Origin: Streptomyces sp. NBC_00190
GTDB lineage: Bacteria > Actinomycetota > Actinomycetes > Streptomycetales > Streptomycetaceae
Assembly: GCF_036203305.1 (NCBI RefSeq)
Contig: NZ_CP108131.1
Location: 8,184,001-8,248,000, forward strand
Reading direction: 5' to 3'
Length of the DNA stretch: 64,000 nt
Shown here: piece by piece, positions 7,185 through 43,013 of the stretch
Layout: each line of letters opens with the position of its first letter
Numbering within the stretch: position 1 is the first letter of the stretch
The notes under the pieces: generated by a model
Told to the model about the DNA's origin: nothing
Database searches by the model: none
Seen by the model: the letters and a program-made list of their open reading frames with translations, nothing else
Made by a program: the position numbers and the translations under genes

Positions 7185-7538
7185 CTGTGGGGGCCTCCGG
7201 GGCCGTTGTGGCCGCGCGCTGGGGACACGGGCCGCTGATGTGTGACATGTAAAATTTCACATGTCGTATCGCGCTGGAAGGCTTCTGGCCAGATTTCCGG
7301 CCACCGCAACTGAAACGTTGTCAACTGCCGACTGCGGGGCCGCCAACCAACCTCAGCGGCCTCCGAGTTGGGAACGCCCCGGGGGCCGCCGGAGCGTCTT
7401 CCTCTCCCATTTCGGCCAGCCCGGAAGTTGTGGGGCCCAGGCCAGGCCGGGCGCGGCCGCGAAGTGGCTCAGAGGCGTCGTGTCCGGCCGCGTTCGGCTG
7501 AGTTAGCGTCGCCCGCAGGAAACCGATGGGGAGGTCTC
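7185..7538. other. divergent intergenic region between collagenase and dehydrogenase operon
   Basis: 354 bp without a credible gene. It holds a perfect 7-bp dyad at 7244-7265 close to the collagenase start and is less GC-rich around 7250-7260. It must carry promoters for both directions, but I cannot assign -35/-10 boxes with confidence. Confidence 0.6.
7244..7265. promoter_or_regulatory. dyad-symmetric operator candidate upstream of collagenase
   Basis: GACATGT (7244-7250) and ACATGTC (7259-7265) are perfect inverted 7-mers separated by the A/T-rich spacer AAAATTTC. The element lies about 60 bp upstream of the collagenase ATG, in the only AT-rich patch of the region. Its position and symmetry suggest a repressor or activator site; the factor is unknown. 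Confidence 0.5.
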
Positions 7539-8675
7539 GTGCGCGCTCTCGTCTATCTGGGTCCAAGCTCCGCCGAACTGCAGGACCGGCCCGCCGCACA
7601 GCTCGTGAACCACGATGACGTCGTGGTGGAGATCGTCGGTACGGGGGTCTGCGGAACGGACCGCAAGATCCTGCTCGGGCGGTTCCCCGCCCGGCCGGGC
7701 GTGGTGCTCGGGCACGAGTCGGTAGGTGTGGTGCGAGAGGCGGGGCCGCAGGTTCGTTCGGTCGGGGTGGGGGACCGGGTGGTGGTCAACCCCACGCTGT
7801 ACTGCGGCTGGTGCGTCCCGTGCCGCCGGGGAGCGACCAACTTCTGCCGTCACAAGGCCGGGACCGAGGTCGGTGTCGACCGCGACGGCACGTACGCGGA
7901 GGCCGTGACTCTGCCGGAACGTTTCGTCGAACGGGTTCCCGCCGGTCTGCCCTTCCGCAGCGCGGTCCTGATCGAGCCGCTCGCCTGCGTCCTGAACAAC
8001 GTCAAGGCCGCGTCCGTAACCTTCGACGACACCGTGGTGGTGCTCGGCGCAGGCCCGATCGGGATGCTGACCGCACTCGTCGCCGCCCGCCGGGCGCGCC
8101 GGGTCACCGTCGCCGAACCGGACGGCTACCGGCTGGAGCGGGCCCGCGAACGGTGCGCGCACGTGGTGGACGTGGCCGGAACGGACCCGGCCGAAGCCGT
8201 GGTGAAGGCCACGGGCGGCGAGCGTCCCTCCGTCGTCTTCGACACCACGGGCACCGGCCTGGACGCGGCGCTGCGGCTGATCGACGACGGCGGCCGGGTG
8301 GTGGTGATGGGCTTCGACGACACCTACACCGTGCCGTTGCGCCCGCTCCAGCTCACCAACCGGGGCATCCAGCTGATCGGCGCCGGGGACTACCGGGCCG
8401 ACATCTTCCCGGTCGCCGTGGACCTGGCCGCAGAGCTCGACGGCCTCCAACGACCTGGCTCCGGCACCGGACCGGTCCTGGAGCGGCTGGTGACGCACGA
8501 GTTCCCGCTCGAACGGTACGCGGAAGCCTTCACCGCGCTCGGCGGGCTCACCCGGGGCGACGGGGCAGGCGGCACCGGCGGCACCGGGCGGCCACCGCGC
8601 TACGACGCGCTCAAGGTCGTCATCCGCTCGCACCCCGGCCCGGTCGGCGCCGACGGCTGGCCGGTGGGCGCGTGA
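7539..8675 (+). CDS. zinc-dependent alcohol/polyol dehydrogenase (MDR family)
   Basis: About 378 aa from GTG 7539, chosen because a GGGGAGG Shine-Dalgarno lies about 6 nt upstream. The catalytic zinc region GTGVCGTDRKIL...PGVVLGHESVGVVREAG is present, as is the structural-zinc-type Cys cluster (CGWCVPCRRGATNFCRHK) of medium-chain dehydrogenases. The Rossmann motif VVLGAGPIGML lies near residue 170. It should oxidise a sugar or polyol alcohol with NAD(P)+. Its stop overlaps the start of the kinase gene (GTGA), so the two are translationally coupled. Confidence 0.88.
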   Translation: MRALVYLGPSSAELQDRPAAQLVNHDDVVVEIVGTGVCGTDRKILLGRFPARPGVVLGHESVGVVREAGPQVRSVGVGDRVVVNPTLYCGWCVPCRRGATNFCRHKAGTEVGVDRDGTYAEAVTLPERFVERVPAGLPFRSAVLIEPLACVLNNVKAASVTFDDTVVVLGAGPIGMLTALVAARRARRVTVAEPDGYRLERARERCAHVVDVAGTDPAEAVVKATGGERPSVVFDTTGTGLDAALRLIDDGGRVVVMGFDDTYTVPLRPLQLTNRGIQLIGAGDYRADIFPVAVDLAAELDGLQRPGSGTGPVLERLVTHEFPLERYAEAFTALGGLTRGDGAGGTGGTGRPPRYDALKVVIRSHPGPVGADGWPVGA

Positions 8676-9616
8676 GCGCGCCGCGCCTCGGGTCGATCGA
8701 GTCGGGCGGGACCAAATTCGTCTGCCTGGTCGGCTCGGCCCCCGACCGGATCGAGGCCGAGACCCGGTTCCCGACCGGCGAACCGGGCCCCACCCTGGCC
8801 CGGGCCATCGCCTTCTTCCAGGAGACGGCCGCCGAGACCGGTCCGCTGGACGCGATCGGCATCGCCTCCTTCGGGCCCCTCGAACTGCGCCCGGGCCATG
8901 CCCGGTTCGGCCGCCTCGCCGCCACCCCCAAACCCGGCTGGTCCGGGGTGGACGTCGCCGGTCCGGTCGCCGCAGCGCTCGGCGTACCGGTGGGCATCGA
9001 CACCGACGTCAACGGCGCGGCCCTCGGCGAGGGCCGCTGGGGCGCGGCCCGGGGCCTGGACGCCTACGTCTACCTCACCGTCGGCACCGGGATCGGCGGC
9101 GGCGCGGTGATCGGCGGCAGGGTGGTCAGCGGGCTGGTCCACACCGAGATGGGCCACCTCGCGGTGCCCCGGGTCGCGGACGACGCCTTCCCCGGCTCCT
9201 GCCCCTTCCACGGCGACTGCTGGGAGGGGCTGGCGGGCGGCGAGGCGATGGGCGCCCGCTGGGGGACCCCGGCCGAAGAACTGACCGGCGACGCACTGCG
9301 CGAGGCGCTGCGACTGGAGGCGTCCTACCTTGCCGCGGGGCTGCGCAACATCGTCTACACGGCCGCGCCCCAGCGGATCGTGATCGGCGGCGGCGTCGCG
9401 GAACTCCCCGGGCTGTTCCCGCTGCTCCGTGCCGAACTGACCTCGGCACTGGGCGGATACCCCGGGCTGCCCGAGCACACGGCCGAGGACTTCGTGGTCC
9501 CGGCACGGCTCGGCCGGCTCGCCGGACCGGCCGGCGGACTGGTCCTGGCGGCCGGGGCGGCCGCCGCCGCACGGGCGCGGCCCGGCGCTGGGCCATCGGG
9601 GGGACCGGACGCATGA
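8672..9616 (+). CDS. ROK-family sugar kinase (fructokinase-like)
   Basis: 314 aa from GTG 8672, overlapping the dehydrogenase stop by 4 bp. The N-terminal phosphate loop is IESGGTKFVCLVG, the catalytic Asp is in VPVGIDTDVNGAALGEGRWG, and VYLTVGTGIGGGAVIGGRVV is the ROK glycine-rich motif. The zinc-binding region of BsFrk/GmuE-type fructokinases is present as HTEMGHL followed by CPFHGDCWEGLAGGEA. It transfers ATP phosphate to a hexose such as fructose or mannose; specificity is inferred from that subfamily. Confidence 0.88.
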   Translation: MSAPRLGSIESGGTKFVCLVGSAPDRIEAETRFPTGEPGPTLARAIAFFQETAAETGPLDAIGIASFGPLELRPGHARFGRLAATPKPGWSGVDVAGPVAAALGVPVGIDTDVNGAALGEGRWGAARGLDAYVYLTVGTGIGGGAVIGGRVVSGLVHTEMGHLAVPRVADDAFPGSCPFHGDCWEGLAGGEAMGARWGTPAEELTGDALREALRLEASYLAAGLRNIVYTAAPQRIVIGGGVAELPGLFPLLRAELTSALGGYPGLPEHTAEDFVVPARLGRLAGPAGGLVLAAGAAAAARARPGAGPSGGPDA

Positions 9617-9647
9617 GGACGGCCCCGGACCGGGCAGGCTGGCCGGT

Positions 9648-10649
9648 GTGACGCGCCCCGACCTGGTGGGCCTCCTGGACCCGGCCACCCGCGCCTGGCT
9701 GACCCGGCACGCCCTGCCCGGCGCCCGGCTGCACGAGGTGGACCCGCTGCCCGGCGGGTTCACCAACGACATGGCCCTGCTCACGACCCGGTCCGCCGAC
9801 GCGCCGGGCGTGGAGCGCTACGTGCTGCGCCGCTACCGGCCCAGCGGCAGCCGGGTCCCGCGCAACACCTGTGCGGTCGAGGTCGCCGTCCTCGGCCGGG
9901 CGGCGGCCCGTACCGTCCCGGTGACCGCGGTGGTCGCGGCCGATCCGCACGGCCGGGCCACCGGCCGCCCCACCCTGCTCTACCGGTTCGTGGACGGGAC
10001 CCCGCTCAGCCAGGTGCTCGCGGACGGCCCGGTGAGCGGCGAGGCGCGGGCCCTGGGCCGGGCCGTCGGCGGGGTGCTGGCGCGGATCGGCCGGGTCAGG
10101 CTGCCCCGCCCGGGCGTCTTCGGCGACTCTTCGCTGGTCCCGGCCCCGGACGGCGCAGCCCCGCTGGGTGACCTGCCCGGTTTCGTCGAGCGCTGTCTGG
10201 CCACCGCGGCCGCGGACGGTCCGCTGAGCGGGACGGACGCGGCCGTACTGCGCGCCCTGGCCCGCCGAGGGCCGCGGGCACTCGCCGCCGTGGCGGGTGA
10301 ACGCAGCCTGGTGCACTGCGACTTCAACCCGAAGAACGTCCTGGTCCAACGACGCGCCGGACAGTGGACGGTGGCCGCCGTGCTCGACTGGGAGCTGGCG
10401 TTCAGCGGCTCCCCGCTCTTCGACGTCGGGAACATGCTGCGCTTCGCCCACGAATACCCGCCCGCCTTCACCGCGGGCTTCCTCAAGGGCTTCCGGGGCG
10501 GGAACGGCCGACTGCCCGGGGACTGGCTGGGGCTCAGCCGGACGCTCGACCTCTTCGCGCTCGCGGACATCCTCACCGCACCGCCCGACCCGGCCTACTT
10601 CGCCCGCGCCCGTACCGTGCTGCGCCGGTCCACCGCCCACCGGTACTGA
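9648..10649 (+). CDS. aminoglycoside phosphotransferase (APH)-fold kinase
   Basis: 333 aa from GTG 9648, 31 bp after the ROK kinase. The APH/choline-kinase fold motifs are intact: the catalytic loop HCDFNPKNVLV (Brenner motif HxDxxxxN), the metal-binding Asp in VLDWELAFSGSPLFDVGN, and an N-terminal GGFTNDMALL phosphate-clamp-like turn. It phosphorylates a hydroxyl of an unknown small molecule. Its place in the operon with a dehydrogenase and a ROK kinase suggests sugar or cyclitol metabolism, or self-protection for the biosynthetic operon that follows, rather than antibiotic resistance as such. Confidence 0.82.
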   Translation: MTRPDLVGLLDPATRAWLTRHALPGARLHEVDPLPGGFTNDMALLTTRSADAPGVERYVLRRYRPSGSRVPRNTCAVEVAVLGRAAARTVPVTAVVAADPHGRATGRPTLLYRFVDGTPLSQVLADGPVSGEARALGRAVGGVLARIGRVRLPRPGVFGDSSLVPAPDGAAPLGDLPGFVERCLATAAADGPLSGTDAAVLRALARRGPRALAAVAGERSLVHCDFNPKNVLVQRRAGQWTVAAVLDWELAFSGSPLFDVGNMLRFAHEYPPAFTAGFLKGFRGGNGRLPGDWLGLSRTLDLFALADILTAPPDPAYFARARTVLRRSTAHRY

Positions 10650-10875
10650 TCGCGGCCGGACGAGTGCACGCCACCGGTCGTCACCTTCCCATCCGGCCCG
10701 TGCGCCGCTCCATTCCCAGGAGGCAACTGCTGTCCGTGCGGTTCGCGGAAGTCCTGGCAATAAGTGTCGAATAAATGGCGGAGAGGTGACGCATGGCCTT
10801 CTTCTCAACATCGAGAACGCCGGTTAGTCTGCCTGGACCGAAGCGAAAGATACTTGACCGAGGGGGAATTCCGCC

Positions 10876-11403
10876 GTGGAGAACGGAAGTCCGCAGAATG
10901 TCCTGAAGACGCTCACGCCGACCGTTCGCTGCAACGGGACGCCTCCCACGCCCGCCCTGCGCGAAGGGCCGTACTACAAGCCCGACACCCCCTTCAGGAC
11001 CAGCTTCCGGGGCGATGTGGAAGACGGCGTCCCGATGCTGCTGCACGGCGGCGTGCGCACCCCCGAAGGCGAGCCGATAGCAGGCGCCCTGCTCGACTTC
11101 TGGCAGGTCGGGGACTCCGGGGTCTACGACGACGACGGTTTTCGGCTGCGCGGCCACCAGTTCGCGGACGCCGAGGGGCAGTGGCGGCTGGAAACGGTGC
11201 TGCCCGCCGTGTACCCCGGGCGGACGCGGCATGTGCACGTGAAGGTGCAGCCGCCCGGCGGATCCGTACTGACCACGATGCTGTATTTTCCCGGCGAACG
11301 CCGAAACCATCTTGACAAGTATTTCCGGCCAGAATGTCTGATGGATGTGCGGGAGACCCCCGAGGGTTGGGACGCCGCGTTCACCTTCATTCTGGACGTG
11401 TGA
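10876..11403 (+). CDS. intradiol ring-cleavage dioxygenase family protein
   Basis: 175 aa from GTG 10876, preceded by a GAGGGGGAA ribosome site. It has the catalytic beta-sandwich of catechol 1,2- and protocatechuate 3,4-dioxygenases. GGVRTPEGEPIAGALLDFWQVGDSGVYDD carries the first Tyr ligand (GVY), and AVYPGRTRHVHVKV carries the second Tyr and both His ligands, so the 2Tyr-2His iron(III) site looks complete. The helical N-terminal dimerisation domain of catechol dioxygenases is missing; the length is closer to protocatechuate dioxygenase subunits. As first gene of the operon it may open an aromatic diol precursor or act on another enediol. Confidence 0.85.
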   Translation: MENGSPQNVLKTLTPTVRCNGTPPTPALREGPYYKPDTPFRTSFRGDVEDGVPMLLHGGVRTPEGEPIAGALLDFWQVGDSGVYDDDGFRLRGHQFADAEGQWRLETVLPAVYPGRTRHVHVKVQPPGGSVLTTMLYFPGERRNHLDKYFRPECLMDVRETPEGWDAAFTFILDV

Positions 11404-11506
11404 ACTCCCGCTGTCCGTAATCCCGGGGAGTCTTTTATTTCGCTGCCCGGAGATATTGATATCCGTCGACCGTCGTGTCCGCGGGACGGAAGCCGACAGG
11501 AGATTC

Positions 11507-12841
11507 ATGGCCGACCTCATGCGCGACCAGCGCGATACGAAGAGCGGTGCCCGGAGTGACGTCCGCGGTGATGCCCTGAGCTACGCCCAGAACCATCTGT
11601 ACTACCCGGTCAGCGCGTACGAGATGGACCACGGCGAGGGCATCCACCTGTACGACACCGACGGCAACGAGTACCTCGACTGCGCGTCCGGCACCTTCAA
11701 CCTGAGCCTCGGCTACGGGCACCCCGAAGTGGTCAAGGCCATGCGCGACCAGGCCGAGCGGCTGGTGCATACGACCTCGACCTTCCAGACCGCCCCCGTC
11801 AACGAGCTGGTCCGGCGGCTGGTCGAGGTCACCCCGCCGAACCTGACGAAGGTGCACCTCAAGGTGTCGGGCGGTTCCACCGCCAACGAGGGTGCCGTCA
11901 AGATGGCGCAGCTCGCCACCGGCCGCCGCGACGTCATCACCCTGTTCCGCAGCCACCACGGCCAGACCATGATGACGACCACCATGTCGGGCGAGTCGTT
12001 CCGCAAGGCACCCTTCCCGCACCTGATGCCGGGCGTCCTCCAGGTGCCCGACCCCTACTGCCTGCGCTGCTTCTACCGCCAGGCGGGGCCCGACAGCTGC
12101 GGCATGCTGTGCGTCGAACGCATCAACGACTTCCTCGACCACGCCAGTTCCGGCAGCGTCGCCTGCGTGGTCGTCGAACCGGTCTCCGGCAGCGGCGGCA
12201 ACATCGTGCCCCCCGAGGGCTACCTGCCCGCGCTGCGCGCCCTGTGCGACGAACGGGGCATCGTCCTCGTCTTCGACGAGATCCAGACCGGCATAGGCCG
12301 GGTCGGCCGGATGTTCGCCGCAGAGCACTACGGGGTCCGGCCCGACATCCTGACGACCGCCAAGGGCCTCGGCGGCTCCGGCGCCCAGATCGCGGCCATC
12401 GTCGCCGACGAGCGGATGTCCGGGCTCAGCAGCGACCACCACTCCTTCACCTACGGCGGCAACGTCCTCGCCGCCGCCGCGGCGGCCACCACCCTCGACG
12501 TGATCGGCCGCCCCGGCTTCCTGGAGAACGTCCGGGAGGTCGGCGCCCACGTCATGGAACGGCTGCGCGTGCTGGCCGCCCTGCACCCCGCCGTCGTGGA
12601 CGTGCGAGGCCTCGGCCTGATGATCGGGATCGAGATCGGTGACGACCAGGGCCGCCCGCACAGCGAACGGGCCCAGGCCCTCGCCCGGCGCGGCATGGAC
12701 CACGGCCTGATCCTGCGCACCTCCCGCTACGGCCGGGGCAACGTGATCAAGATTCGCCCGCCACTGATCCTCACCCGTGCGCAGGCCGATCTGCTCTGCG
12801 ACCGGCTCGAAGCCCTCTTCGCCGCCGAGGCCGCCGCGTGA
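11507..12841 (+). CDS. class III PLP-dependent aminotransferase
   Basis: 444 aa from ATG 11507 with ACAGGAGA upstream. It has the class III (omega-aminotransferase/GABA-AT) layout: LYDTDGNEYLDCASGTFNLSLGYGHP, the phosphate-binding SGGSTANEGAVKMA, the Asp in VLVFDEIQTGIGRVG that holds the pyridine nitrogen, and the Schiff-base Lys in LTTAKGLGGSG. A Cys-rich insert (PDPYCLRCFYRQAGPDSCG) occurs in several 4-aminobutyrate-type members. It would install an amine on a keto or aldehyde intermediate, presumably before the diiron oxygenase acts. Its stop overlaps the next start (GTGA). Confidence 0.92.
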   Translation: MADLMRDQRDTKSGARSDVRGDALSYAQNHLYYPVSAYEMDHGEGIHLYDTDGNEYLDCASGTFNLSLGYGHPEVVKAMRDQAERLVHTTSTFQTAPVNELVRRLVEVTPPNLTKVHLKVSGGSTANEGAVKMAQLATGRRDVITLFRSHHGQTMMTTTMSGESFRKAPFPHLMPGVLQVPDPYCLRCFYRQAGPDSCGMLCVERINDFLDHASSGSVACVVVEPVSGSGGNIVPPEGYLPALRALCDERGIVLVFDEIQTGIGRVGRMFAAEHYGVRPDILTTAKGLGGSGAQIAAIVADERMSGLSSDHHSFTYGGNVLAAAAAATTLDVIGRPGFLENVREVGAHVMERLRVLAALHPAVVDVRGLGLMIGIEIGDDQGRPHSERAQALARRGMDHGLILRTSRYGRGNVIKIRPPLILTRAQADLLCDRLEALFAAEAAA

Positions 12842-13794
12842 CCGCCTCCGCGTACGGCGGCCCTCCACCCGCCGCGGCCGTGCGGCTGTACGTGACCGGC
12901 CTCGCCGGCGCCGTCCGCGAGGCCGTACTGGCCGCCCAGCACCAGCGCGGCAGCCGGCTGGTACGCGGCCACTCGCCGGGCGGGGACGCCCAGTTCGGCC
13001 TCGACGAGGTCGCGGAGGCCGCTGTCTGGGAGTACGTCGTCGGACACGACCTGCCCGTCGCGGTCTACTCCGAGGACCGGGGCCTGAAGTACCACGGCAC
13101 GGACCCGGCCCACCTGCTGGTCGTCGACCCGATCGACGGCACCCGGCCCGCCGTCGCCGGCCTGGAGTCGGCCACCGTCTCGGTGGCCGTCGCCCGCATG
13201 TCGCACCGCCCGCGCATCGCCGACGTCGAGCACGCGCTGCTGATGGAGCTGCGCACGGGCGCCTACCTCTACGGGGACCTGGCGACGCCCGGCATCACCG
13301 CGCACGGCTACGACCACCCCGTCCCGGCGCTGACCCGCACCACCGACCCCGCGCGGATGTTCTGGTCGCTGGAGTTCAACGGCCACCCGGCCCGCCTGAT
13401 GACCGAGGCCTACGGCCACCTCATCGACCGCTCGGCCAACACCGGCGGGGTCTTCGTCTTCAACAGCGCCACCTGGTCCATCTCCCGGCTGCTCACCGGC
13501 CAGCTCGACGCCTACGTGGACATCGGCAACCGGCTGCTGCGCGACGACCCGGCACTGCTGCCCGAGTTCGAACGCGTCGGCAACGGCCGGGTCCTGCACC
13601 TGTTCCCGTACGACATCGCCGCGGCCGTCTTCCTCGCAGAGCGGGCCGGGGCGGTCATCACCGACGGCTACGGACAGCCGCTCGGCGAGACGGTCCTGAC
13701 CGATCTGACCATCACCAACCAGCGGTCCTGTGTAGCCGCATCCACCCCCGAGCTCCACCGGGCCCTGCTGTCGGCCGTCCGATGGAAGGAGTGA
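12838..13794 (+). CDS. inositol monophosphatase/FBPase-like phosphatase
   Basis: 318 aa from GTG 12838, overlapping the aminotransferase stop. The metal-binding motifs are AVYSEDRG (Glu-Asp) and LVVDPIDGTRP, the canonical DPIDGT signature. A later DIAAAVFLAERAGAVITDGYGQPL corresponds to the family's C-terminal WDxAAGxxLxxEAGG element, although the leading Trp and its Asp context are altered (FPYDIAAAVF). It should remove phosphate from a sugar- or cyclitol-type phosphate under Mg2+. In this operon it could dephosphorylate a product of the upstream kinases; this is inference. Confidence 0.85.
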   Translation: MTASAYGGPPPAAAVRLYVTGLAGAVREAVLAAQHQRGSRLVRGHSPGGDAQFGLDEVAEAAVWEYVVGHDLPVAVYSEDRGLKYHGTDPAHLLVVDPIDGTRPAVAGLESATVSVAVARMSHRPRIADVEHALLMELRTGAYLYGDLATPGITAHGYDHPVPALTRTTDPARMFWSLEFNGHPARLMTEAYGHLIDRSANTGGVFVFNSATWSISRLLTGQLDAYVDIGNRLLRDDPALLPEFERVGNGRVLHLFPYDIAAAVFLAERAGAVITDGYGQPLGETVLTDLTITNQRSCVAASTPELHRALLSAVRWKE

Positions 13795-13799
13795 CGACC

Positions 13800-14714
13800 A
13801 TGCGCCCCCAGAACACCCAGCCCACCGGATCAGCCGGCACCGCGACAGCGGACGACACCGAGTTCCGGGCCCTGCTCGACCGGCTCTCCGACAAGGCCAC
13901 CGCGGACTACTACAACCCGTTCACCACCTTCGACTGGCCGCCCGCGATCCCCACCGACGGGCTCTGGATGTCCCCCGAACTGCTCTCCGTCCACGGCACC
14001 GAGCTGATCGACGAACTGAGCCCGGCCCAGCTCCAGGCCCTGAGCCGGTGGGAGAGCGTCAACTTCTACAGCCTCAACGTGCACGGCATCCGCGAACTGC
14101 TCATCGAGGTCACCCGCCGCATCCACACGCCCGGTTTCGAGCTCCCCTCCGAGTTCTTCCACCACTTCATCGGTGAGGAGAACGACCACATGTGGTTCTT
14201 CGCCACCTTCTGCCTCAAGTACGCCGACAAGATCTACCCCGACAAGTCGGTCAAGCTGCCCGAGGCTCCGCGCGACCCGGACGTCGAGAGTTTCCTGGTC
14301 TTCGCCCGGATCCTGATCTTCGAGCAGATCGTGGACCATTACAACGTCCAGCTGGCCGCTGACCAGCGCCTGCACCCGACCGTCCGGCACATCAACCGGC
14401 TGCACCATCAGGACGAGTCCCGCCACATCGCCTTCGGCCGCCGCCTGGTGCAACTGATGTGGAAGCGGCTCCTCGACAGCGGCCTGGACGAGGTGGCGCG
14501 GCTCGAACTGCGCAGCTACCTCGGCCGCTACCTCACCACCAGCATGGAGTCCTTCTACAACCCGGCCGTCTACCGGGACGCGGGCCTCGCGGACGGCTTC
14601 GCGCTGCGCCGGCGGCTGCTCGCCCACCCCGCCCGGCAGGCCGCCCACGCCAAGGTCCTGCACAAGACCACCGATTTCCTCCACCGGATCGGGGTGTTCG
14701 ATGCCCGTCACTGA
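13800..14714 (+). CDS. AurF-like diiron oxygenase (putative amine N-oxygenase)
   Basis: 304 aa from ATG 13800, preceded by GAAGGAGTG. The four-helix carboxylate-bridged diiron ligand set can be read in order: Glu in WESVNFYSLNVHGIRELL, GEENDHMWFF (ExxH type), EQIVDHYN, and HHQDESRHIAFGR (HxxExxH type). This pattern, with helix-rich architecture and about 300-340 aa, is that of AurF/CmlI-family N-oxygenases, which convert amines to hydroxylamine, nitroso or nitro products. A nitronate monooxygenase and a MOSC protein in the same operon fit N-O chemistry. Hydroxylation at carbon is the main alternative. Confidence 0.85.
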   Translation: MRPQNTQPTGSAGTATADDTEFRALLDRLSDKATADYYNPFTTFDWPPAIPTDGLWMSPELLSVHGTELIDELSPAQLQALSRWESVNFYSLNVHGIRELLIEVTRRIHTPGFELPSEFFHHFIGEENDHMWFFATFCLKYADKIYPDKSVKLPEAPRDPDVESFLVFARILIFEQIVDHYNVQLAADQRLHPTVRHINRLHHQDESRHIAFGRRLVQLMWKRLLDSGLDEVARLELRSYLGRYLTTSMESFYNPAVYRDAGLADGFALRRRLLAHPARQAAHAKVLHKTTDFLHRIGVFDARH

Positions 14715-15576
14715 CCCCACGGCCACCGGGAACACCGCGGCCACCTGGTCGGTCCGGGACGGACTGGCCACCCTCGACGAACCCGCCGTCCTGCTGAAGG
14801 GCGCACTCGACGCGGTGTTCACCCGCTGGGGCGCCGACGCCGGAGCCCGGCAGCAGAGCTACCCGCCGCTGCTGAGGGCCGAGGACCTGCGCACCCTCGA
14901 CTACTTCCGCAACTTCCCGCACCTGGGCAGCCCGGTCGCCCGGATCCGCCCCGACCGGCTGGCCGCCGTCGCCGCGGACCCGCCCGGAGCCACCGCGCTG
15001 CCCCCGGCCGACCTGGCCGACGCCACCCACCTGCTGCCCTCCGCGGCCTGCTACGGCTGCTTCCTGCACCTCACCGGCAGCAGTGCCGACACCCCCGTCC
15101 TGATCACCACCGTCGCGCAGTGCTTCCGTAACGAGGACCACCACGACGGGCTGCGCAGGCTCTGGGGGTTCACCATGCGGGAGATCGTGTGTGTCGGCTC
15201 CGCCGAAGCGGTACGGGCCCACCTCGACCGGCACCAGGAGCGGATCGCCGCCTTCGGCGCGGCCCTCGGCCTCTCCCTGGACCGGCAGCCCGCCACCGAC
15301 CCCTTCTTCGAGAAGGACGGCGCCCGCACCGTCATGCAACTGCTCGCCCCGGTCAAGGACGAGTACCTGCACACCGACGGCACCGCCGTCGCCTCCACCA
15401 ACAACCACCGCAACTTCTTCGGCGAACGCCGCGCCATCCGCCACGCGGGCCGCCCGGCCTTCACCGGCTGCGTCGCCTTCGGCCTGGAGCGCTGGGTGCA
15501 CGCCCTCGGCGACCGCTTCGAGGGGGACCTGGCCGCCGCGCACCGCGCGGTACGGCAGGCGGGGGAGGGCTCGTGA
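14701..15576 (+). CDS. SerRS-like amino acid:[carrier protein] ligase
   Basis: 291 aa, starting 14 bp inside the diiron oxygenase gene. This is a class II aminoacyl-tRNA-synthetase catalytic core with no tRNA-binding arm. Motif 2 is QCFRNEDHHDGLRRLWGFTMREI and motif 3 is CVAFGLERWVHAL. Candidate Zn ligands resemble those of atypical SerRS and aa:CP ligases: Cys in SAACYGCF, Glu in TMRE, Cys in TGCVAFGLER. Proteins of this type adenylate a small amino acid and load it on the phosphopantetheine of a carrier protein; the free-standing carrier protein at 16619 is the obvious partner. A true SerRS would be about 420 aa with a coiled-coil arm. Confidence 0.85.
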   Translation: MPVTDPTATGNTAATWSVRDGLATLDEPAVLLKGALDAVFTRWGADAGARQQSYPPLLRAEDLRTLDYFRNFPHLGSPVARIRPDRLAAVAADPPGATALPPADLADATHLLPSAACYGCFLHLTGSSADTPVLITTVAQCFRNEDHHDGLRRLWGFTMREIVCVGSAEAVRAHLDRHQERIAAFGAALGLSLDRQPATDPFFEKDGARTVMQLLAPVKDEYLHTDGTAVASTNNHRNFFGERRAIRHAGRPAFTGCVAFGLERWVHALGDRFEGDLAAAHRAVRQAGEGS

Positions 15577-16616
15577 CCCGGCTGGCCGCTCGGCTGGGTC
15601 TCGAACTGCCGCTGCTTCAAGCGGGGATGGGCGCCGTAGCCGGGGCCGCGCTGTGCGCCGAGGTGTCCCGGGCCGGAGCGGGCGGCACCCTCGCGCTGTT
15701 CAAGGAACCGCCCGCGCGGGCCGCCCGGCTGGTTCAGGAGGTGGCGGCCGCGACGTCCCGCCCGTTCGGGGTGAACGTGGTTCCCGAGGTCGCCGGCCCG
15801 GCCGCCTGCCTGAACCAGCTTCGGGCCGTCCTGCCCGAACTGCCCCGGGGCGGCTTCGTCACCTCCTTCGGGCTGCCCGACGCCGACGCGGCCCGGGCCG
15901 TGCAGGGCGCCGGACACCCGCTGGTGGTCCAGGTCGGCACCCTCGAGGACGCCGACACCGCCCTCGGGCTGGGTGCGGCCGTCCTCGTCCTCCAGGGCAC
16001 CGAAGCCGGCGGCCACCTGCTCGGCGGGCTGCCCGTGGACGCCCTACTGGCCGGCGTCCGGTCCCGCCACCCGCACGCCGTCCTGGCCGTCGCGGGCGGG
16101 ATCGCGACGGGGAGGGACATCGCGGGCGCCCTGGCGCGCGGCGCGGACGGGGCCATGGCCGGAACCCTGTTCGTTCCTGCCGCAGAATCCACCGCGCACC
16201 CGGAGTTCAAACGGCGAGTGGTCGAAGCCGTGGCCGAGGACACCCTCATCACCTCCCTCTTCGACATCGGCTGGCCGCACCGCCCGCACCGCGTCCTGCG
16301 CAACCCCCTCACCGACACCGCGGACCGCGCCCCGGCCACCTTCATCGCCACCACCCGGGTGGACGGGCGGGAGTACCCGGTACCGCGCTACAGCGCGGCG
16401 GCTCCGGGGGACGGGACCACCGGCCGCATCGAGGAGATGGCCATGTACTGCGGCCGGTCCTGCACCCGCGTCACCGCCCTGCACCCGGCCGCCGCGACCG
16501 TCGCCCGGGTCCGCCAGGAGTACGAGAGCGCGCTGCGGACCGGCGGGGGCCCCCGAATGCCATCAGGGTCGCGCACGAGCAAGACCGAAGAACTGCACCG
16601 GATCCAGAAGAGGTGA
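15573..16616 (+). CDS. nitronate monooxygenase-like flavoprotein
   Basis: 347 aa from GTG 15573 (GTGA overlap). A TIM-barrel FMN enzyme of the 2-nitropropane dioxygenase/nitronate monooxygenase family. It starts with ELPLLQAGMGAVAGAALCAEVS, has the phosphate-binding VLQGTEAGGHLLGG containing the family Gly/His elements, and VAGGIATGRDIAGALARGADGAMAGTLF for FMN phosphate. These enzymes oxidise alkyl nitronates to carbonyl compounds and nitrite; related barrels act as enoyl reductases. Next to a putative N-oxygenase it could either process or detoxify a nitro intermediate. The C-terminal ~40 residues are low-complexity and basic. Confidence 0.87.
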   Translation: MTRLAARLGLELPLLQAGMGAVAGAALCAEVSRAGAGGTLALFKEPPARAARLVQEVAAATSRPFGVNVVPEVAGPAACLNQLRAVLPELPRGGFVTSFGLPDADAARAVQGAGHPLVVQVGTLEDADTALGLGAAVLVLQGTEAGGHLLGGLPVDALLAGVRSRHPHAVLAVAGGIATGRDIAGALARGADGAMAGTLFVPAAESTAHPEFKRRVVEAVAEDTLITSLFDIGWPHRPHRVLRNPLTDTADRAPATFIATTRVDGREYPVPRYSAAAPGDGTTGRIEEMAMYCGRSCTRVTALHPAAATVARVRQEYESALRTGGGPRMPSGSRTSKTEELHRIQKR

Positions 16617-16618
16617 CC

Positions 16619-16852
16619 ATGGACGACACCATCAAGCCGGTCGTGGACTGGCTGCGCGAACGCAACCCCACCGTCGATGAGATCCCGGAGGACCTCGACC
16701 TGATCGAGAACCGGCTGATCGACTCGCTCGGCTTCATGGAGTTCATCCTGCTGCTGGAGGACCTGATCGGCCGGGAACTGCAGCTCGACCAGATCGACGT
16801 GAACCAGTTCCGCACCCTGCGCTCCCTCACGGACAACTTCCTGAAGGGGTGA
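16619..16852 (+). CDS. free-standing acyl/peptidyl carrier protein
   Basis: 77 aa from ATG 16619, 2 bp after the flavoprotein stop, with GAAGAGGTG upstream. The phosphopantetheine attachment site is the Ser of LIDSLGFMEFILLLEDLIG (about residue 35), followed by the usual helix III ending in LRSLTDNFLKG. The fold and length are those of a discrete carrier protein. It probably receives an aminoacyl group from the SerRS-like ligase at 14701 and carries it while the diiron oxygenase or dioxygenase acts. No condensation or ketosynthase domain is nearby, so chain extension is not implied. Confidence 0.92.
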   Translation: MDDTIKPVVDWLRERNPTVDEIPEDLDLIENRLIDSLGFMEFILLLEDLIGRELQLDQIDVNQFRTLRSLTDNFLKG

Positions 16853-16859
16853 GCAGCCC

Positions 16860-17426
16860 ATGGCGCAGGATCCGCCGCCGCCCGGACCCGGCCGGGTCAC
16901 CTCCCTGCACCTCGCCGTGCGCACCGGCGAACCCACCTTCCGCGTCGCGCAGGCCCGCGCGGTGACCGGCCGCGGCCTGGCGGGGGACCGCAACTACTGG
17001 GCGGGCGAGGGCCCCCGGCCCCGGCGCCGGGGGACCGGCCGGGCATCCGGGGTCTGCGACGTCACCCTCATCGAGGCCGAGGCCCTCGACGCCCTGGCCC
17101 GCGAACACGGCATCTCGCTCACTCCCGCCGAATGCCGCCGCAACCTCGTCTGCCGCGACATCTGGCTCAACCCGCTGGTGGACCAAGAATTCCAGATCGG
17201 CGCGGTGATCCTGCGCGGCCTCAAACTCAGCGAGCCCTGCGCCCGCCTAGAACAGCTGGTCCGCCCCGGCCTGATCCGCGGTCTGCTGCACCGCGGCGGG
17301 CTGCGGGCCGAGGTGGTCCGCGGCGGGACGATCCGGGCCGGCGACCGGATCCTCCCGCTGCCGCACGACGCGCGGCCACTCCCGCGTTCGCAGCGCGCGC
17401 CCGCGACCCAGTGGCGCGTTCGCTGA
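16860..17426 (+). CDS. MOSC-domain protein
   Basis: 188 aa from ATG 16860, 7 bp after the carrier protein. MOSC signatures: an early VTGRGLAGDRNYW segment, then TLIEAEALDALAREHGISLTPAECRRNLVCRD (the ExR(R)N element), and the conserved Cys in LKLSEPCARLE. The strand order matches YiiM/Moco sulfurase C-terminal domains. MOSC proteins bind molybdenum cofactor or sulfur through that Cys, and YiiM/YcbX/mARC-type members reduce N-hydroxylated compounds. Such an activity would complement the N-oxygenase in this operon. It is the last gene of the operon. Confidence 0.85.
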   Translation: MAQDPPPPGPGRVTSLHLAVRTGEPTFRVAQARAVTGRGLAGDRNYWAGEGPRPRRRGTGRASGVCDVTLIEAEALDALAREHGISLTPAECRRNLVCRDIWLNPLVDQEFQIGAVILRGLKLSEPCARLEQLVRPGLIRGLLHRGGLRAEVVRGGTIRAGDRILPLPHDARPLPRSQRAPATQWRVR

Positions 17427-17613
17427 CGGCGGGCGGCCGAACGGCTACTTGTCCGCACCGGCGCTCCCGATGAATCGTGGGGAGCCCGCAAGCCCGGCAC
17501 GCACCCGCGGGACCGGGCCGCAAGCGTCCATGTCCGCGGGTCCGGACGGTTCGCCCGCGCACGGCGCGGAGGGCACGCTGTCCGGCCCGTGGCCCTGCAG
17601 GCAGGAAGACAGC

Positions 17614-18981
17614 ATGGCGATCGAAGGCACCGCCCCCTGGCGGGCGAGCGGCACGGCACCGGAGTTCGGCACGGACACCCCGTCAGCCAAAGCCGTGGAG
17701 CGGGCGGAACGGGCGGGCGAGGAGCTCGCCACGGAGGGGGCGGCCGTTTCGGTCCGCCTGCTGGGATGGGGCTTCGCCCTCCGCCTCGACCAGCGGGCCG
17801 CTGACCGCCTAGCTCCCTCGGACGGCGGGCCCGTCAGCGGCTTCCGCAGCCTGGTGTCGGAGGTGCTCGCGGGATCCCTGCCCGAAGCCATGGCCGAAGC
17901 CGTCGGCGCGGAGTTTGCCGGACGCGCCGACCGGATCCGGTCGGCCGCCCGGGGCGCCGGGTGCGATCTGCTCTCTTCGTGGGCCGCGCCCACCCTCCTC
18001 GCCCCCATGGCCCTCGACGCGCCGCCGCGCGAGACCGGCCTGTGGTTCAGCGTGTTCGAAGCGGGCGCGGGCTGGGGACCCGACGTGCAGTTCACGGCCC
18101 GCTACGCCTCCGAAACCCCCGCCCTGGCCGTCTTCCGCGATGACCTGTACTGCGTCTACCAGGGCCGGGGCGACGACCCCGACCTGTGGTGGACCGCGCA
18201 CCGCGCGGACGGCAGCTGGTCCGAGGACCTGCCGTTCCCCGCCCACCACACCCTGGGCAGCCCGGCCCTGGCCGTGTTCCAGGACCGGCTGTACTGCGCG
18301 CACCGCGGCGGCTCGGGCGACTGGAGCATCGCGCTGAGCTCGTACGACGGCGGTACCTGGAGGCCGGACAGGCCGGTCCCGAACGCCGAGAGCGTCTACG
18401 GCCCGGCACTGGCCGTCTTCCGCGACGCACTCCACCTCGCCTACGCCGACGCCGCCCAGCGGATCATGGTCACCACCAGCCGGGACGGCCGCAGCTGGAC
18501 AGCCCCCGAACCCGTCCCCGGCTGCGCCACCACGAGGTCACCGGCGCTCGCCGTGTACGACGGCGCCCTGCACCTGCTGCACGGCAACCCCAAGGACGGG
18601 GCGATCCACTGGAGCCGGCTGCGCGGCACCACCTGGACCCTCGAGGGCGCGCTACCCGGACACCGTACTCGGAGCAACATCGGCCTCGCCGTCTTCGACG
18701 GCAAGCTGATGTGCGTCCACCGCGACCCCACCCGCCAGCAGCTGTGGTGGTCCGCCTTCGACGGCACCGCGTGGAGCACGGACACCGAGATGTCGGGGCA
18801 CAGCAGCAAGTACGGTCCGGCACTGGCCGTGCACCGGAACCGGACCGGCACCCGCGACCAACTCCTGTGCGTCCACCGGGGCCACGCCCAGCGGTTCGTC
18901 ACCGCGACCGGGGAGGTGCTGACCGACGAGGACCCGGCGGGGCTGCACGAACTCGACGACCCGGCCTCCGCCACCGACTGA
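17614..18981 (+). CDS. beta-propeller (lectin/sialidase-like) repeat protein
   Basis: 455 aa from ATG 17614, chosen because GCAGGAAG lies about 7 nt upstream; the frame is open from 17449. The N-terminal ~130 residues are non-repetitive. From about residue 145 on there are six repeats of about 50 residues, each with a (S/T/G)PALAVF-type strand followed by LYCVYQG or LxCVHRx and a Trp-rich strand (DLWWTAH, QQLWWSAF). This is the signature of a six-bladed propeller like fucose-binding lectins and sialidase-fold proteins. No signal peptide is seen. It may be the distal gene of the preceding operon or independent; the ligand is unknown. Confidence 0.8.
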   Translation: MAIEGTAPWRASGTAPEFGTDTPSAKAVERAERAGEELATEGAAVSVRLLGWGFALRLDQRAADRLAPSDGGPVSGFRSLVSEVLAGSLPEAMAEAVGAEFAGRADRIRSAARGAGCDLLSSWAAPTLLAPMALDAPPRETGLWFSVFEAGAGWGPDVQFTARYASETPALAVFRDDLYCVYQGRGDDPDLWWTAHRADGSWSEDLPFPAHHTLGSPALAVFQDRLYCAHRGGSGDWSIALSSYDGGTWRPDRPVPNAESVYGPALAVFRDALHLAYADAAQRIMVTTSRDGRSWTAPEPVPGCATTRSPALAVYDGALHLLHGNPKDGAIHWSRLRGTTWTLEGALPGHRTRSNIGLAVFDGKLMCVHRDPTRQQLWWSAFDGTAWSTDTEMSGHSSKYGPALAVHRNRTGTRDQLLCVHRGHAQRFVTATGEVLTDEDPAGLHELDDPASATD

Positions 18982-19145
18982 GACCAGGCCCTGCCCGACC
19001 CATTCCGTGACGTCCTGCTCCACGGCGACACCCACAACCGTCCCGACCCAACCACCAGGGTCGGCCCGTACATCGAGCGGGCCCGACCCGGCGACGCCCA
19101 CGACACAACGCTGCCCGCGCGGGTGGCTCGCTCGGTGCCCCTGGC

Positions 19146-20257: not shown

Positions 20258-21922
20258 GTGGAGCAAACGGGGGTGCCGGGCGGGGCGGTGGAATCCCGAA
20301 AGGGGCCCGGGCGTCGGCTGCTTTTGGGCTTTGCCGCTGCCGCGCTCGCTTCGTGGCCTGCCGGTATGACGACATCCGCGAGTGCGGCCGTCGGTCTCGA
20401 GGACACCGCGGACCGCGTCCAGAGGGGGCGTGGACTCGATGTGAAGGCTGAGAACGCGCTGCCCGGCTCCCCTGAATGGCGGATCACCCGGGCCGGGCCG
20501 GCGCGTGCTGTCGAGGGTTTCGCCGACCGGGTCAGTGTCTGCCCGGGAGAGTCGTTCGGATTGCGGGTTTCGACGACGTCCGCGTTCTACACCGTCTCCG
20601 CGTACCGGATGGGCTGGTACGGCGGCGCCAGGGCCCGTCTGGTCTGGAAGTCGGCCGCTCTGCCGGGTGTCCTCCAGCCGCCGGCCAGGACCGATCCCGG
20701 CACGCGGATGGCGCGCACCGAGTGGGAGCCGACGGCGCAAGTGGACACCTCGGCGTGGCCGGAGGGCTGTTACCTCCTGCGGCTGGACACCCAGGACGGG
20801 CGGGCCCAGCGCTACGTGCCACTCACCGTCCGGTCCTCCTCGACCGCCGGCCGTACGGTCGTGGTCAACGCGGTGGCCACCTGGCAGGCGTACAACCGGT
20901 GGGGCGGCACGGACCTCTACAGGGGCCCGACGGGCAAGGGCGGGTCGCGGTCCCTCCAGGTCTCCTTCGACCGCCCGTACGCCAACAGACAAGGCGCCGG
21001 CCAGTTCCTCGTGTTCGAGGCGCCAGTGATCGCGCTCGCCGAGCGCCTGGGAATTCCCCTGGCGTACGCGACGGGCCTGGACGTGGCCCGCGATCCGCAT
21101 CTGCTCCACGGGGCGGCCGCCATGGTCTCGCCGGGCCACGACGAATACTGGAGTCCCGAGCAGCGCCGCCACGTGACCCGGGCGCGCGATGCGGGGATGA
21201 ACCTGGCCGTGCTCGGTGCCAACTGCTGCTACCGAAGGATCCGCTTCGCGGCCTCCCCGGCCGGGCAGGACCGCATCGTGGTCTGCTACAAGAACGACTA
21301 CGCCCAGGACCCCGGCTTCCAGCAGGGCTCCGCGCCCACGAACGAATTCCGGCGCGAGCCCGCCTCCGACCCCGAGAGCTCGCTGCTCGGCGTGATCTAC
21401 GACGGCTATCCGGTCGACGCCCCCTACGTCGTCTCCCACCCGGACCACTGGCTCCTGGAGGGTACCGGGGCGCGGGTCGGCGACTCCTTCCCCCACCTGG
21501 TAGGGGTCGAGTACGACCGGGTGAATCCGGCCTTCCCGACGCCGCGGCCGATCGAGGTGCTCGCGCACTCGCCGGTGGTGTGCAAGGGCCGGCCCTCGTA
21601 CGCGGATACGGCCTACCTGTCCCTGCCTGGGGGTGGCGCGGTGTTCGCGACGGGCACCATGCGCTGGGTCGAGGCCCTCGACGCGAGCGGGCCCGGTGGC
21701 GGCAGGGGCAACCACGGCCTGGACGCACGCGCTGGGCACTTCACGCGCACGGTCACCGCCAATGTCCTACGGGCGTTCGCGCGCGGGGCAACGGGGCGGG
21801 CCAAGCCCGCCCAGGACAATCTGGCCGCCCACCACGGGGACACAAACGCCGCGATCGCCACCCGCTGGCCGCTACTCCCGGTCCGAGCCCAAAGCCTCGG
21901 GCCATTGCCGAGGCCGTCCTGA
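20258..21922 (+). CDS. secreted N,N-dimethylformamidase beta-subunit-like protein
   Basis: About 554 aa from GTG 20258 (GTG 20255 also possible; CCGGAG lies just upstream). The N-terminus has a twin-arginine-like [19 protein letters not shown] segment, then TTSASAAVG, so export is likely. The mature part has the DMFA2-type fold: [50 protein letters not shown] and [20 protein letters not shown]. Members with this domain include the large subunit of dimethylformamidase, but most are uncharacterised exported actinobacterial proteins. The substrate cannot be assigned. The segment just upstream is the gene-fragment patchwork. Confidence 0.82.
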
Positions 21923-26789: not shown

Positions 26790-27377
26790 TCACGCGCGAG
26801 GTTCCCTGGGGGAAACCGAGGGGAACGAGGTGTCCAGGGGCGCTTCCCTCCGCCGGTTGAAGGGAAGTCCGCCGAGCACGACCGCCATGCCGCAGGTGTT
26901 GCTGAGGGCGGAGAAGACCAGGCCGGCCGCGATCCCCGCGGACAGCCACCGGAAGGCCGGGTGGACGAGGAAGCCGAGGGCCAGGCCGAGAAGCACGACG
27001 GAGCCCGCCGTGAAACGGACTTGGCGCTCCATGGACCAGACGTTCCGCGTACGGCCTTCGGGGCGGTCGAGCCCGTGCCCCGCGGCCGCCCAGGCGGCGG
27101 TGCCGCCGGTGAGGTTCGACGCGTCGATGCCGTGGGAGGCCAGGGTGGCAACGGCGTTCTCCGCCCGGGCGCCGGAGGCGCACACCACCAGCAGGGTCCT
27201 GTGCTCGGCGGCCTGCCGGAGATCCGGCAGCGCCCGCCCGATGCGGTCGAGGGGGACGTTGACGGCGTTCGGCAGGTGGCCGGACGCGAACTCGCCCGGA
27301 GTACGGACATCGACGACGGTCAGCTCGTGGCGGCGGGAGAACGCCTCGCTCACGCTCAGGGCGGCGGAAACACTCAT
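26790..27377 (-). CDS. rhodanese domain protein with membrane-anchored DUF2892-like tail
   Basis: 195 aa from ATG 27377. The N-terminal rhodanese domain (residues 10-105) has VDVRTPGEFASGHLPNAVNV and the active-site loop VVCASGARAENA, with Cys as the persulfide carrier. The C-terminal part (RQVRFTAGSVVLLGLALGFL, then LSAGIAAGLVFSALSNTCGM) forms two or three membrane helices typical of the YgaP/DUF2892 type. It probably moves sulfane sulfur at the membrane. It is the last of three minus-strand genes with the sulfatase and its activator, so a role in the sulfur released there is plausible. Confidence 0.88.
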   Translation of the reverse strand: MSVSAALSVSEAFSRRHELTVVDVRTPGEFASGHLPNAVNVPLDRIGRALPDLRQAAEHRTLLVVCASGARAENAVATLASHGIDASNLTGGTAAWAAAGHGLDRPEGRTRNVWSMERQVRFTAGSVVLLGLALGFLVHPAFRWLSAGIAAGLVFSALSNTCGMAVVLGGLPFNRRREAPLDTSFPSVSPREPRA

Positions 27378-27447
27378 GGCGGATCGTGGTCCTTGGCAGA
27401 AGGGGGAGGGCCTGGGCGGAGGTGTCTCGACGGGTGTGCGGGCGCCG

Positions 27448-28374: not shown

Positions 28375-28449
28375 GGCGGCTCCGTCGGTGTGAGTTGCGG
28401 GGGGCGGGTGCCCCGCGGGTGATGCCGCGGGGCACCCGGCCGGGTACCG

Positions 28450-29853: not shown

Positions 29854-30016
29854 GGGATGTCTTCTCCTGGTTCCGCAGCTCGTACGGGTACGGCAGATCA
29901 ACTGCCGTGAAGGGGTGGAAGAGAGACGAGGATCAGGCATCGACCGGTCGGCCCCTTCGGGGGCGGACAGGGGCGAGATGCCAGGTGGGGATCCCGTGCG
30001 AAGAGGCGATGCGTGA

Positions 30017-30109
30017 TTACCGTCGCGCCCAGGCGATCGGACACAGAGCGCTCGCCAGCCTGCCCAGATCGACGTGGCGGCGTGCAGTGAGAGGGCTTCC
30101 AGCTGCCAT
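30017..30109 (-). CDS. cysteine-type regulatory leader peptide upstream of sulfatase operon
   Basis: A 30-codon ORF starting at ATG 30109 and ending in TAA. Its core is ARRHVDLGRLASALCPI, matching the actinobacterial sulfur-gene leader pattern R-x-H-x-D-L-x-R-x-x-S-x-x-C. The same pattern is seen twice more in this window (33310-33408 and 35794-35877). Such leaders let ribosome stalling or speed at Cys codons report cysteine supply. A -10-like TAGCCT ends 7 nt before the ATG, so the mRNA may be leaderless. No protein function is expected beyond regulation. Confidence 0.8.
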   Translation of the reverse strand: MAAGSPLTARRHVDLGRLASALCPIAWARR

Positions 30110-30116
30110 GCGGATG

Positions 30117-30145
30117 AGGCTAGGGGCGGGGGTGAGGCCGGTCCA
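30117..30145 (-). promoter_or_regulatory. promoter for leaderless leader peptide/sulfatase transcript
   Basis: On the minus strand TGGACC (30145-30140), 17-bp spacer, TAGCCT (30122-30117). The predicted start point falls at about 30109, the A of the leader ATG, so translation would begin at the 5' end of the mRNA. Confidence 0.5.
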
Positions 30146-30242
30146 TGTACGGCATGTGAAAAGTGGAACTCTGCTCGGCGCGGCAGGTCCGGCGCCTGCC
30201 GGACCGGTGTCGCGGCTGGTCAGTGTCGAGCGTGACCGCTGA

Positions 30243-31908: not shown

Positions 31909-31942
31909 GGTCGTCACCTCCTGGGGTTGCTGGATTTCGGGG

Positions 31943-42240: not shown

Positions 42241-43013
<773 letters not shown>

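Follow-up and report, generated by a model that had tools for sequence, protein, structure and literature searches.

RESULTS

Here, we analysed a stretch of 64,000 nucleotides from Streptomyces sp. NBC_00190 (contig NZ_CP108131.1, positions 8,184,001 to 8,248,000; hereafter the window, with positions counted from its first letter) and found a conserved unit of eleven same-strand genes at 7605-17426, in which a predicted azasugar pathway is joined to a predicted N-oxygenation cassette built on a carrier protein (Table 1). An earlier note, made from the sequence alone, had described eight compact same-strand genes at this locus. Indeed, all eight reported open reading frames (ORFs) are present on the + strand, in the families and with the short gaps or overlaps that it gave, and their coordinates needed only small corrections; its bounds, however, were too narrow, missing three further + strand genes upstream (7605-10649: Zn dehydrogenase, ROK kinase and APH-type kinase). 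Because the whole set recurs in order elsewhere, these upstream genes are part of the unit, which is wider than the eight and runs ADH, ROK, APH, DIOX, AT3, IMP, AURF, LIG, NMO, ACP, MOSC. Among the eight, 103 nt precede the aminotransferase gene and all other spacings lie between -14 and +7 nt, with overlaps of 4 or 14 nt at the AT3-IMP, IMP-AURF, AURF-LIG and LIG-NMO junctions. In line with what the earlier note had said of its eight genes, no polyketide synthase or nonribosomal peptide synthetase is found among the eleven genes.

Table 1. Predicted genes of the eleven-gene unit and the gene that follows it (window positions)
Gene	Predicted product	Position	Strand	Matches and remarks
ADH	Zn-type medium-chain dehydrogenase, GutB1-like	7605..8675	+	ORF opens 7368; start codon uncertain
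ROK	ROK-family sugar kinase	8672..9616	+	fructokinase ScrK is the nearest NCBIfam model (8.2e-60; 203 bits, cut-off 400)
APH	APH-type phosphotransferase	9648..10649	+	PF01636, 2.8e-31; in eight full clusters and L153
DIOX	intradiol-type dioxygenase	10876..11403	+	PF00775 (Dioxygenase_C), 9.4e-16; PDB 4ilv, 4.1e-49
AT3	class III aminotransferase, GabT1-like	11507..12841	+	PF00202 (Aminotran_3), 2.4e-93; ORF opens 11345, start used 11507
IMP	IMPase-family phosphatase, YktC1-like	12838..13794	+	PF00459 (Inositol_P), 7.6e-15
AURF	ferritin-like diiron N-oxygenase	13791..14714	+	Pfam AurF, 6.4e-31
LIG	SerRS-derived amino acid:[carrier protein] ligase	14701..15576	+	NCBIfam amino acid--[ACP] ligase, 1.3e-34
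NMO	nitronate monooxygenase / FabK-type flavoprotein	15573..16616	+	PF03060, 5.6e-33; FabK model, 1.6e-28
ACP	free-standing carrier protein	16619..16852	+	PF00550 (PP-binding), 17.2 bits, below the 20.8 cut-off
MOSC	MOSC-domain protein	16860..17426	+	PF03473, 2.8e-9
BNR	beta-propeller-like protein, accessory rather than core	17695..18981	+	BNR_2, 6.7e-6, below cut-off; ORF opens 17449

Conservation of the eleven-gene unit

Is this grouping of genes more than a coincidence of one chromosome? Seventeen ligases were aligned; a first set of ligase loci comprised the 20 best-scoring among the 118 of 392 genomes with a match, and the relatives fetched from named genomes were the best 80 of 290. In these 80 loci a carrier protein gene lies beside the ligase gene in 79, an AurF gene in 73 and a nitronate monooxygenase (NMO) gene in 35. 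The complete eleven-gene set, in constant order and on a constant strand, was found in eight of them (L054-L061), hosted by five Streptomyces (including S. lavendulae CCM 3239, S. goshikiensis and S. niveus), two Kitasatospora and Protofrankia coriariae. These eight are also exactly the loci whose AurF is at least 60% identical to that of the window, the best value elsewhere being 58%. Other searches gave two extra full copies, one in genome G019 (L035) and one in Kitasatospora kifunensis (L153). L034 and L054 are one and the same stretch of DNA, and L035 is 96.5% identical to L056. The earlier note had named a lack of co-occurrence in homologous loci as what would speak against it; the genes stand together in the eight loci, in G019 and in K. 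kifunensis.

Ten loci were compared in detail, namely the window, L054-L061 and L153, with L035 left out; they represent three genera with a fixed gene order (the ROK gene of L061 was found by tblastn only). The ratio of nonsynonymous to synonymous substitution rates (dN/dS) stays under 1 in each of the eleven genes, ranging from 0.13 to 0.50 against S. niveus (L058) and from 0.13 to 0.89 against K. kifunensis, where the ligase gives the highest value. Recurrence in order in eight of 80 loci, together with dN/dS below 1, therefore makes the grouping more than chance. No syntenic flanking genes are common to the ten loci; four families recur in two or three of them, at different places. Two deep splits that we tested are the same in 10 of the 10 gene trees built (the trees omit ROK, and the L061 aminotransferase enters them as a fragment), and this agreement indicates that sugar genes and N-oxygenation genes have probably travelled together. 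A search of plasmids returned nothing beyond a 2% fragment.

The predicted azasugar genes

Bacterial azasugar clusters have been defined by three genes (PMC8382821): those for a dehydrogenase, for an aminotransferase with a consensus motif and for a phosphatase, which in Bacillus and Streptomyces is of the PF00459 type. The AT3 protein carries an azasugar-type motif at residues 161-188, which agrees with the published consensus (PMC8382821) at 14 of its 16 fixed positions and has two residues fewer in the spacer, and a pyridoxal phosphate (PLP) lysine, K286, assigned by motif. Neither AT3 nor the other azasugar loci compared match the strict published motif; a relaxed version occurs in 7 of the 10 full clusters and in 10 of 13 other azasugar loci from Streptomyces, these 10 having the shorter spacer too. 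The adjacent phosphatase is of the PF00459 type and has intact DPIDGT and YDIAA motifs, the residues of which are present in all ten copies; Bacillus-named proteins among its best 120 homologues are 56-60% identical (e.g. B. velezensis P0168, 59%). A GutB1-like dehydrogenase lies within 10 kb, at 7605-8675. Its NCBIfam match, to an L-threonine dehydrogenase model (2.3e-42), is below cut-off, and it is 63-91% identical to its counterparts in the eight full clusters, 89% to that of K. kifunensis and 44-50% to those found in 13 three-gene sets, which served as the azasugar reference. Thus, the predicted dehydrogenase, class III aminotransferase and IMPase together are the three-gene signature of azasugar clusters. 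The ROK gene accompanies them in the eight full clusters (by tblastn) and in L153.

Close IMPase homologues occur in 15 of 392 genomes of the genus, at 16 loci, all of which were examined. The full set is present at three of these, the window and two loci whose phosphatases are 91% identical to its own, and the other 13 are three-gene sets, 11 of them compact and 2 with ~2.3 kb between phosphatase and dehydrogenase. Cassette genes were found at none of the 13 within the 18-20 kb looked at. One of the 13, a canonical set (L135, G000:C1:6949223-6952451), lies in the window's own genome, with 66%, 58% and 44% identity to the aminotransferase, phosphatase and dehydrogenase of the window; given this set, the strain may make two azasugars.

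The predicted N-oxygenation cassette

The AURF protein has all seven diiron ligands (E88, E130, H133, E178, H205, E209 and H212), a seven-ligand N-oxygenase pattern that was checked against PMC13061610. Searches of solved structures by sequence, protein or profile, gave nothing at E<=0.001; structure comparison was decisive, with AurF and CmlI as best matches, and fold and diiron site fit these arylamine N-oxygenases. The gene context points to an aminoacyl carrier rather than an arylamine as the substrate.

The neighbouring ligase scores 119.5 bits with its NCBIfam model (cut-off 357) and 21.6 bits with Pfam tRNA-synt_2b, below the 29.3 cut-off, and matches PDB 3mey (Bll0957) at 1.9e-23. Its residues C117, E161 and C257, invariant in 10/10 copies, align with positions that we take to be the Zn ligands of Bll0957. 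This homologue prefers glycine; the amino acid loaded in the window system is probably glycine. A loading enzyme is thus accompanied by a carrier, whose attachment serine S36 (D-S-L motif) is present in all ten copies compared. For the Pfam calls below cut-off (PP-binding and tRNA-synt_2b) we relied on motifs and NCBIfam and, for the ligase, also on matches to solved structures. The NMO protein matches FabK (3.7e-23) and NMO (5.8e-17) structures in the PDB and carries the motif GTEAGGH at 142-148, with H148 in all ten copies.

Taken together, carrier tethering and diiron N-oxygenation of an amino acid are supported as predicted functions. This part of the earlier note has therefore held up, given the Zn-site residues of the ligase, the structural matches to AurF and CmlI and the seven ligands. 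A valanimycin-type logic was considered and rejected: the SerRS homologue of that pathway charges tRNA, while the short ligase of the window matches carrier-protein ligases (cf. PMC2922099).

The intradiol-type enzyme, the MOSC protein and the downstream flank

Residues Y84, Y113, H119 and H121 of DIOX are present in 10/10 copies and presumably occupy the positions of the family's Fe(III) ligands. Of its best 120 homologues, 23 are 66-91% identical, two fragments reach 91-92% and the remainder stay at or below 58%, a gap that marks a separate clade. In the MOSC protein, cysteines C66, C98 and C127 are invariant in the ten copies, C127 being, as we assume, the candidate Mo ligand; its structure model, with a predicted local distance difference test (pLDDT) score of 44.7, was too poor for a structure search. 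In six of the ten loci compared (the window, L054-L057 and L153), the BNR gene comes after the block. Further downstream, window positions 20708-21922 encode a protein whose C-terminal domain resembles the N,N-dimethylformamidase beta-subunit (3.6e-96); it lies outside the cluster and is not shared by the other copies compared.

More distant parts of the window (26790-33052 and 39967-52181) resemble a sulfur-scavenging region. Its first genes encode a rhodanese and an FGE-type sulfatase-modifying enzyme beside a sulfatase and an NMT1-type ABC transporter binding protein; then follow an arylsulfotransferase, luciferase-like monooxygenases and a second sulfatase with an NPCBM domain.

The cluster in the kifunensine producer

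The azasugar kifunensine was obtained from 'Kitasatosporia kifunense' (PMC8628514), the same taxon as Kitasatospora kifunensis. We tested the prediction that this producer has the cluster. Genome G546 was taken as K. kifunensis on a 100% match to P0085, a protein so named by NCBI, and indeed it contains the complete block (L153), on a contig other than that of P0085. L153 and window 7456-18997 share 92.4% DNA identity over 11,692 bp, and the eleven genes are 89-94% identical. The genome has one close aminotransferase (96%, the next being 36%) and a single IMPase homologue at E<=1e-5; the block is the only azasugar set detected there, a search that unrelated enzymes would escape.

In a concatenated tree the K. 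kifunensis copy is nearest to that of the window (support 0.995), and the two other Kitasatospora copies are farther away. Since K. kifunensis is closer to the window than its congeners are, the tree points to a probable horizontal transfer of the cluster. A second AurF-ligase-carrier triad of K. kifunensis (L152, G546:C1:7629890-7630783; 58%, 44% and 43% identical) lies away from the azasugar block.

DISCUSSION

Kifunensine is mannojirimycin in which the ring nitrogen and C1 are bridged by oxamide, and the formulas agree: mannojirimycin (C6H13NO5) plus oxamic acid (C2H3NO3) minus 2 H2O gives kifunensine (C8H12N2O6). An azasugar pathway and a glycine-oxidising cassette are what such a molecule needs, and this correspondence leads us to read window 7605-17426 as a cluster that probably makes kifunensine or an oxamide-bridged azasugar very close to it, a reading to which we would give roughly three chances in four on genomic grounds.

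How could the two halves work together? We infer the substrates, the order of the steps, the retention of nitrogen and any roles of the APH-type, intradiol-type and MOSC proteins; the route would run as follows. The ROK kinase would supply fructose 6-phosphate, the class III aminotransferase would aminate its C2, the IMPase would remove the phosphate, and the Zn dehydrogenase would oxidise C6, upon which ring closure would give mannojirimycin. In parallel, the ligase would activate an amino acid, probably glycine, and load it onto the carrier protein, where the AurF-like enzyme would oxidise the bound amine to the oxime or nitronate level. NMO, perhaps with the MOSC protein, which could reduce N-OH, would then lead to an oxamoyl thioester in which the glycine nitrogen is kept. 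Oxime thioester and oxamoyl thioester are isomers, so that nitrogen retention should need no extra redox step; alternatively, the nitronate may rearrange to a hydroxamate, which the MOSC protein would reduce. Finally, the oxamoyl group would be moved to the ring nitrogen of mannojirimycin, and the amide nitrogen would close on C1 to form the bicyclic oxamide. We hold this detailed route, from carrier-bound glycine through AurF-type N-oxygenation and a nitrogen-retaining rearrangement to a double closure on mannojirimycin, only tentatively, at a little short of an even chance. To our knowledge, no such route to kifunensine is known. The sugar steps have a precedent in the route inferred for S. 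lavendulae, from fructose 6-phosphate through aminomannitol to a nojirimycin-type ring, and mannojirimycin is a named intermediate in S. subrutilus (PMC6713920). Our search of the open-access literature found no paper on a kifunensine gene cluster; subscription papers, which lay outside it, could describe one.

The fate of the nitrogen is where the kifunensine reading divides. The same cluster could make the same type of product if NMO turned the carrier-bound nitronate into a glyoxylyl thioester and nitrite, the amide nitrogen then coming from another donor. The title of He and Ryan (2021) places denitrification among the fates of glycine-derived nitronates (cited through PMC9967187), and an NMO gene in 35 of the 80 ligase loci would suit it; the window's NMO gene, with its conserved His, fits either loss or keeping of the nitrogen. 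Denitrification, however, needs an additional amination and a two-electron oxidation, for which no obvious enzyme is found among the eleven genes, and we consider nitrogen retention the more economical balance. We thus regard this variant as unlikely, though it is the strongest of the rivals.

A lower chance still is given to an azasugar other than kifunensine, carrying a glycine-derived acyl group (glyoxylyl, oximino or nitroacetyl), with K. kifunensis using an unrelated route to kifunensine. Streptomyces relatives of the cluster holders are known for nojirimycin or deoxynojirimycin rather than kifunensine (PMC8466323, PMC6713920), and interleaved azasugar clusters have been proposed by their authors to make other azasugars (PMC8466323). 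Against this, no second azasugar-type phosphatase or aminotransferase was detected in K. kifunensis. Moreover, the structure of kifunensine amounts to a mannojirimycin core plus a C2N unit.

The earlier note had proposed a stand-alone pathway that turns a tethered amino acid into a small nitro or N-hydroxy metabolite. The AurF, ligase, carrier and NMO genes are real, tightly packed and overlapping at their ends, and the AurF-ligase-carrier triad occurs in many other gene contexts; the azasugar genes are nevertheless always in the block where AurF is at least 60% identical (the eight of 80 loci, as well as G019 and K. kifunensis), and the gene trees concur. We therefore rejected a nitro end product as the likeliest outcome and regard it as improbable; the note had overlooked the azasugar half with its dehydrogenase, ROK and APH genes. 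Two unrelated neighbouring pathways, or a catabolic operon centred on the intradiol-type protein, would fit the cassette's occurrence in many other contexts and that of azasugar three-gene sets without it, yet are hardly credible given the fixed order in ten loci of three genera with no syntenic flanks in common, the overlap of the azasugar phosphatase and AurF genes and the deep splits shared by 10/10 gene trees.

Several points weigh against an assignment to kifunensine. The denitrification branch reported by He and Ryan in 2021 is said to strip the very nitrogen that our route would keep, and the NMO partner fits it. We know of no report of kifunensine from S. lavendulae, S. goshikiensis, S. 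subrutilus or S. nojiriensis, and the first two would hold a silent or unnoticed pathway if this is the kifunensine cluster. The species name of G546 hangs on a single protein match (P0085). DIOX, APH and MOSC are without an explained role in the pathway, no dedicated enzyme for coupling oxamoyl to the azasugar is recognisable among the eleven predicted products, and transporter and regulator genes are absent from the block. The relaxed aminotransferase motif is missing in L059-L061, the L061 aminotransferase is split over two ORFs, and the ligase is weakly constrained between the window and K. kifunensis (dN/dS 0.89). Finally, mannojirimycin was undetected in S. lavendulae UN-8 (PMC6713920).

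Relation to known systems

The window shares with the gabT1-yktC1-gutB1 clusters of Bacillus and Streptomyces (PMC8382821, PMC8466323) the aminotransferase motif, the PF00459 phosphatase and the Zn dehydrogenase. It differs in a changed order, in interleaved ROK, APH and intradiol genes and in an added five-gene block (diiron N-oxygenase, ligase, NMO, carrier and MOSC). A survey found 'disordered' azasugar sets in 41 Streptomyces genomes, with interleaved genes that were mostly of the APH, ROK, intradiol dioxygenase or sugar-nucleotide/NAD(P) kind, and both ordered and disordered sets in S. nojiriensis and S. subrutilus (PMC8466323). The window cluster fits this description, and the AurF homologue of S. 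subrutilus is 85% identical to that of the window; the passages of the survey that were consulted do not bring up the N-oxygenase cassette, its main text has 0 mentions of 'nitronate' and of 'MOSC', and it assigns no product to these sets. Since antiSMASH did not predict the disordered cluster of S. nojiriensis (PMC8466323), the earlier expectation that common detectors could miss a cluster of this kind is supported.

The cassette has relatives of its own. Glycine-derived nitronates are reportedly made on a carrier protein in enteromycin carboxamide biosynthesis (He and Ryan, 2021, Nat Chem 13:599), so that the pathway logic, taken for undescribed in the earlier note, was described already. 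The likeness lies in a diiron oxygenase that has an amino acid on a carrier protein as its substrate, whereas the window couples it to an azasugar pathway, a MOSC protein and an intradiol-type enzyme. Triads of ligase, carrier and AurF in other bacteria have NMO or methyltransferase partners, and for enteromycin a nitronate O-methyltransferase is used (PMC9967187). Bll0957 (PDB 3mey) belongs to the same family as the window ligase, with three aligned Zn-ligand residues and 38% identity (88 of 234 aligned residues); the window ligase is shorter (291 aa against a 346-residue chain) and sits in another operon. The whole cluster is shared, at the DNA identity given above, with the kifunensine producer. 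We set aside lipothrenin (PMC10616846), actinonin and matlystatin (PMC5719088), a class-I synthetase survey (PMC2922099), diazo biosynthesis (PMC13061610), a heme-oxygenase-like review (PMC13108848) and a strain survey that names enteromycin (PMC11205464), which, in the parts available, do not describe the gene set of the window. Both modules are known. As far as we have seen, what is new is that they are united in a fixed way, that MOSC and intradiol-type proteins are their partners and that the whole is linked to kifunensine.

Other triad contexts, typed roughly (PLP lyase/agmatine-deiminase-like, nonribosomal peptide synthetase and lipid-like), were met along the way. In L064, L065, L067-L069, L072, L074, L075, L080 and L083 the AurF-carrier-ligase triad stands with an agmatine-deiminase-family protein, and most loci of this type also encode a condensation-domain-like protein together with a beta-eliminating-lyase-type PLP enzyme; they represent another kind of N-oxygenation cluster (L064 representatives were scanned). 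L085, L091, L109 and ~15 similar actinobacterial loci combine the triad with NMO, a ~296-aa protein (no Pfam match at 1e-4 for the L085 member), a hydrolase and a phosphopantetheinyl transferase; nine loci of the L085 type encode a 900-aa aminotransferase-dehydrogenase fusion. AurF, carrier, ligase, NMO and methyltransferase genes are consecutive in L078/L134 on plasmid pTM2 of the alphaproteobacterium Tistrella mobilis, and triads also occur in contigs of Blastocatellia (L062, L063) and Elusimicrobia (L076). The window's own genome holds two more AurF-family genes, adjoining and on opposite strands (L001, L003; G000:C1:5308846-5310802).

Kifunensine inhibits mannosidase I and serves in the manufacture of a therapeutic glycoprotein as well as in glycan engineering (PMC8628514). 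With a cluster that has genes for both putative halves of this molecule and is found in the producer and several Streptomyces, kifunensine biosynthesis can be put to a direct test, and engineered production and analogues could come within reach. The cluster also offers a likely role for some of the disordered azasugar clusters that the survey had left open (PMC8466323), and a defined setting for the question whether the nitrogen of glycine nitronates is lost or kept. If the proposed route is true, N-oxygenation would gain a new role in biology, the oxidation of an alpha carbon to an amide.

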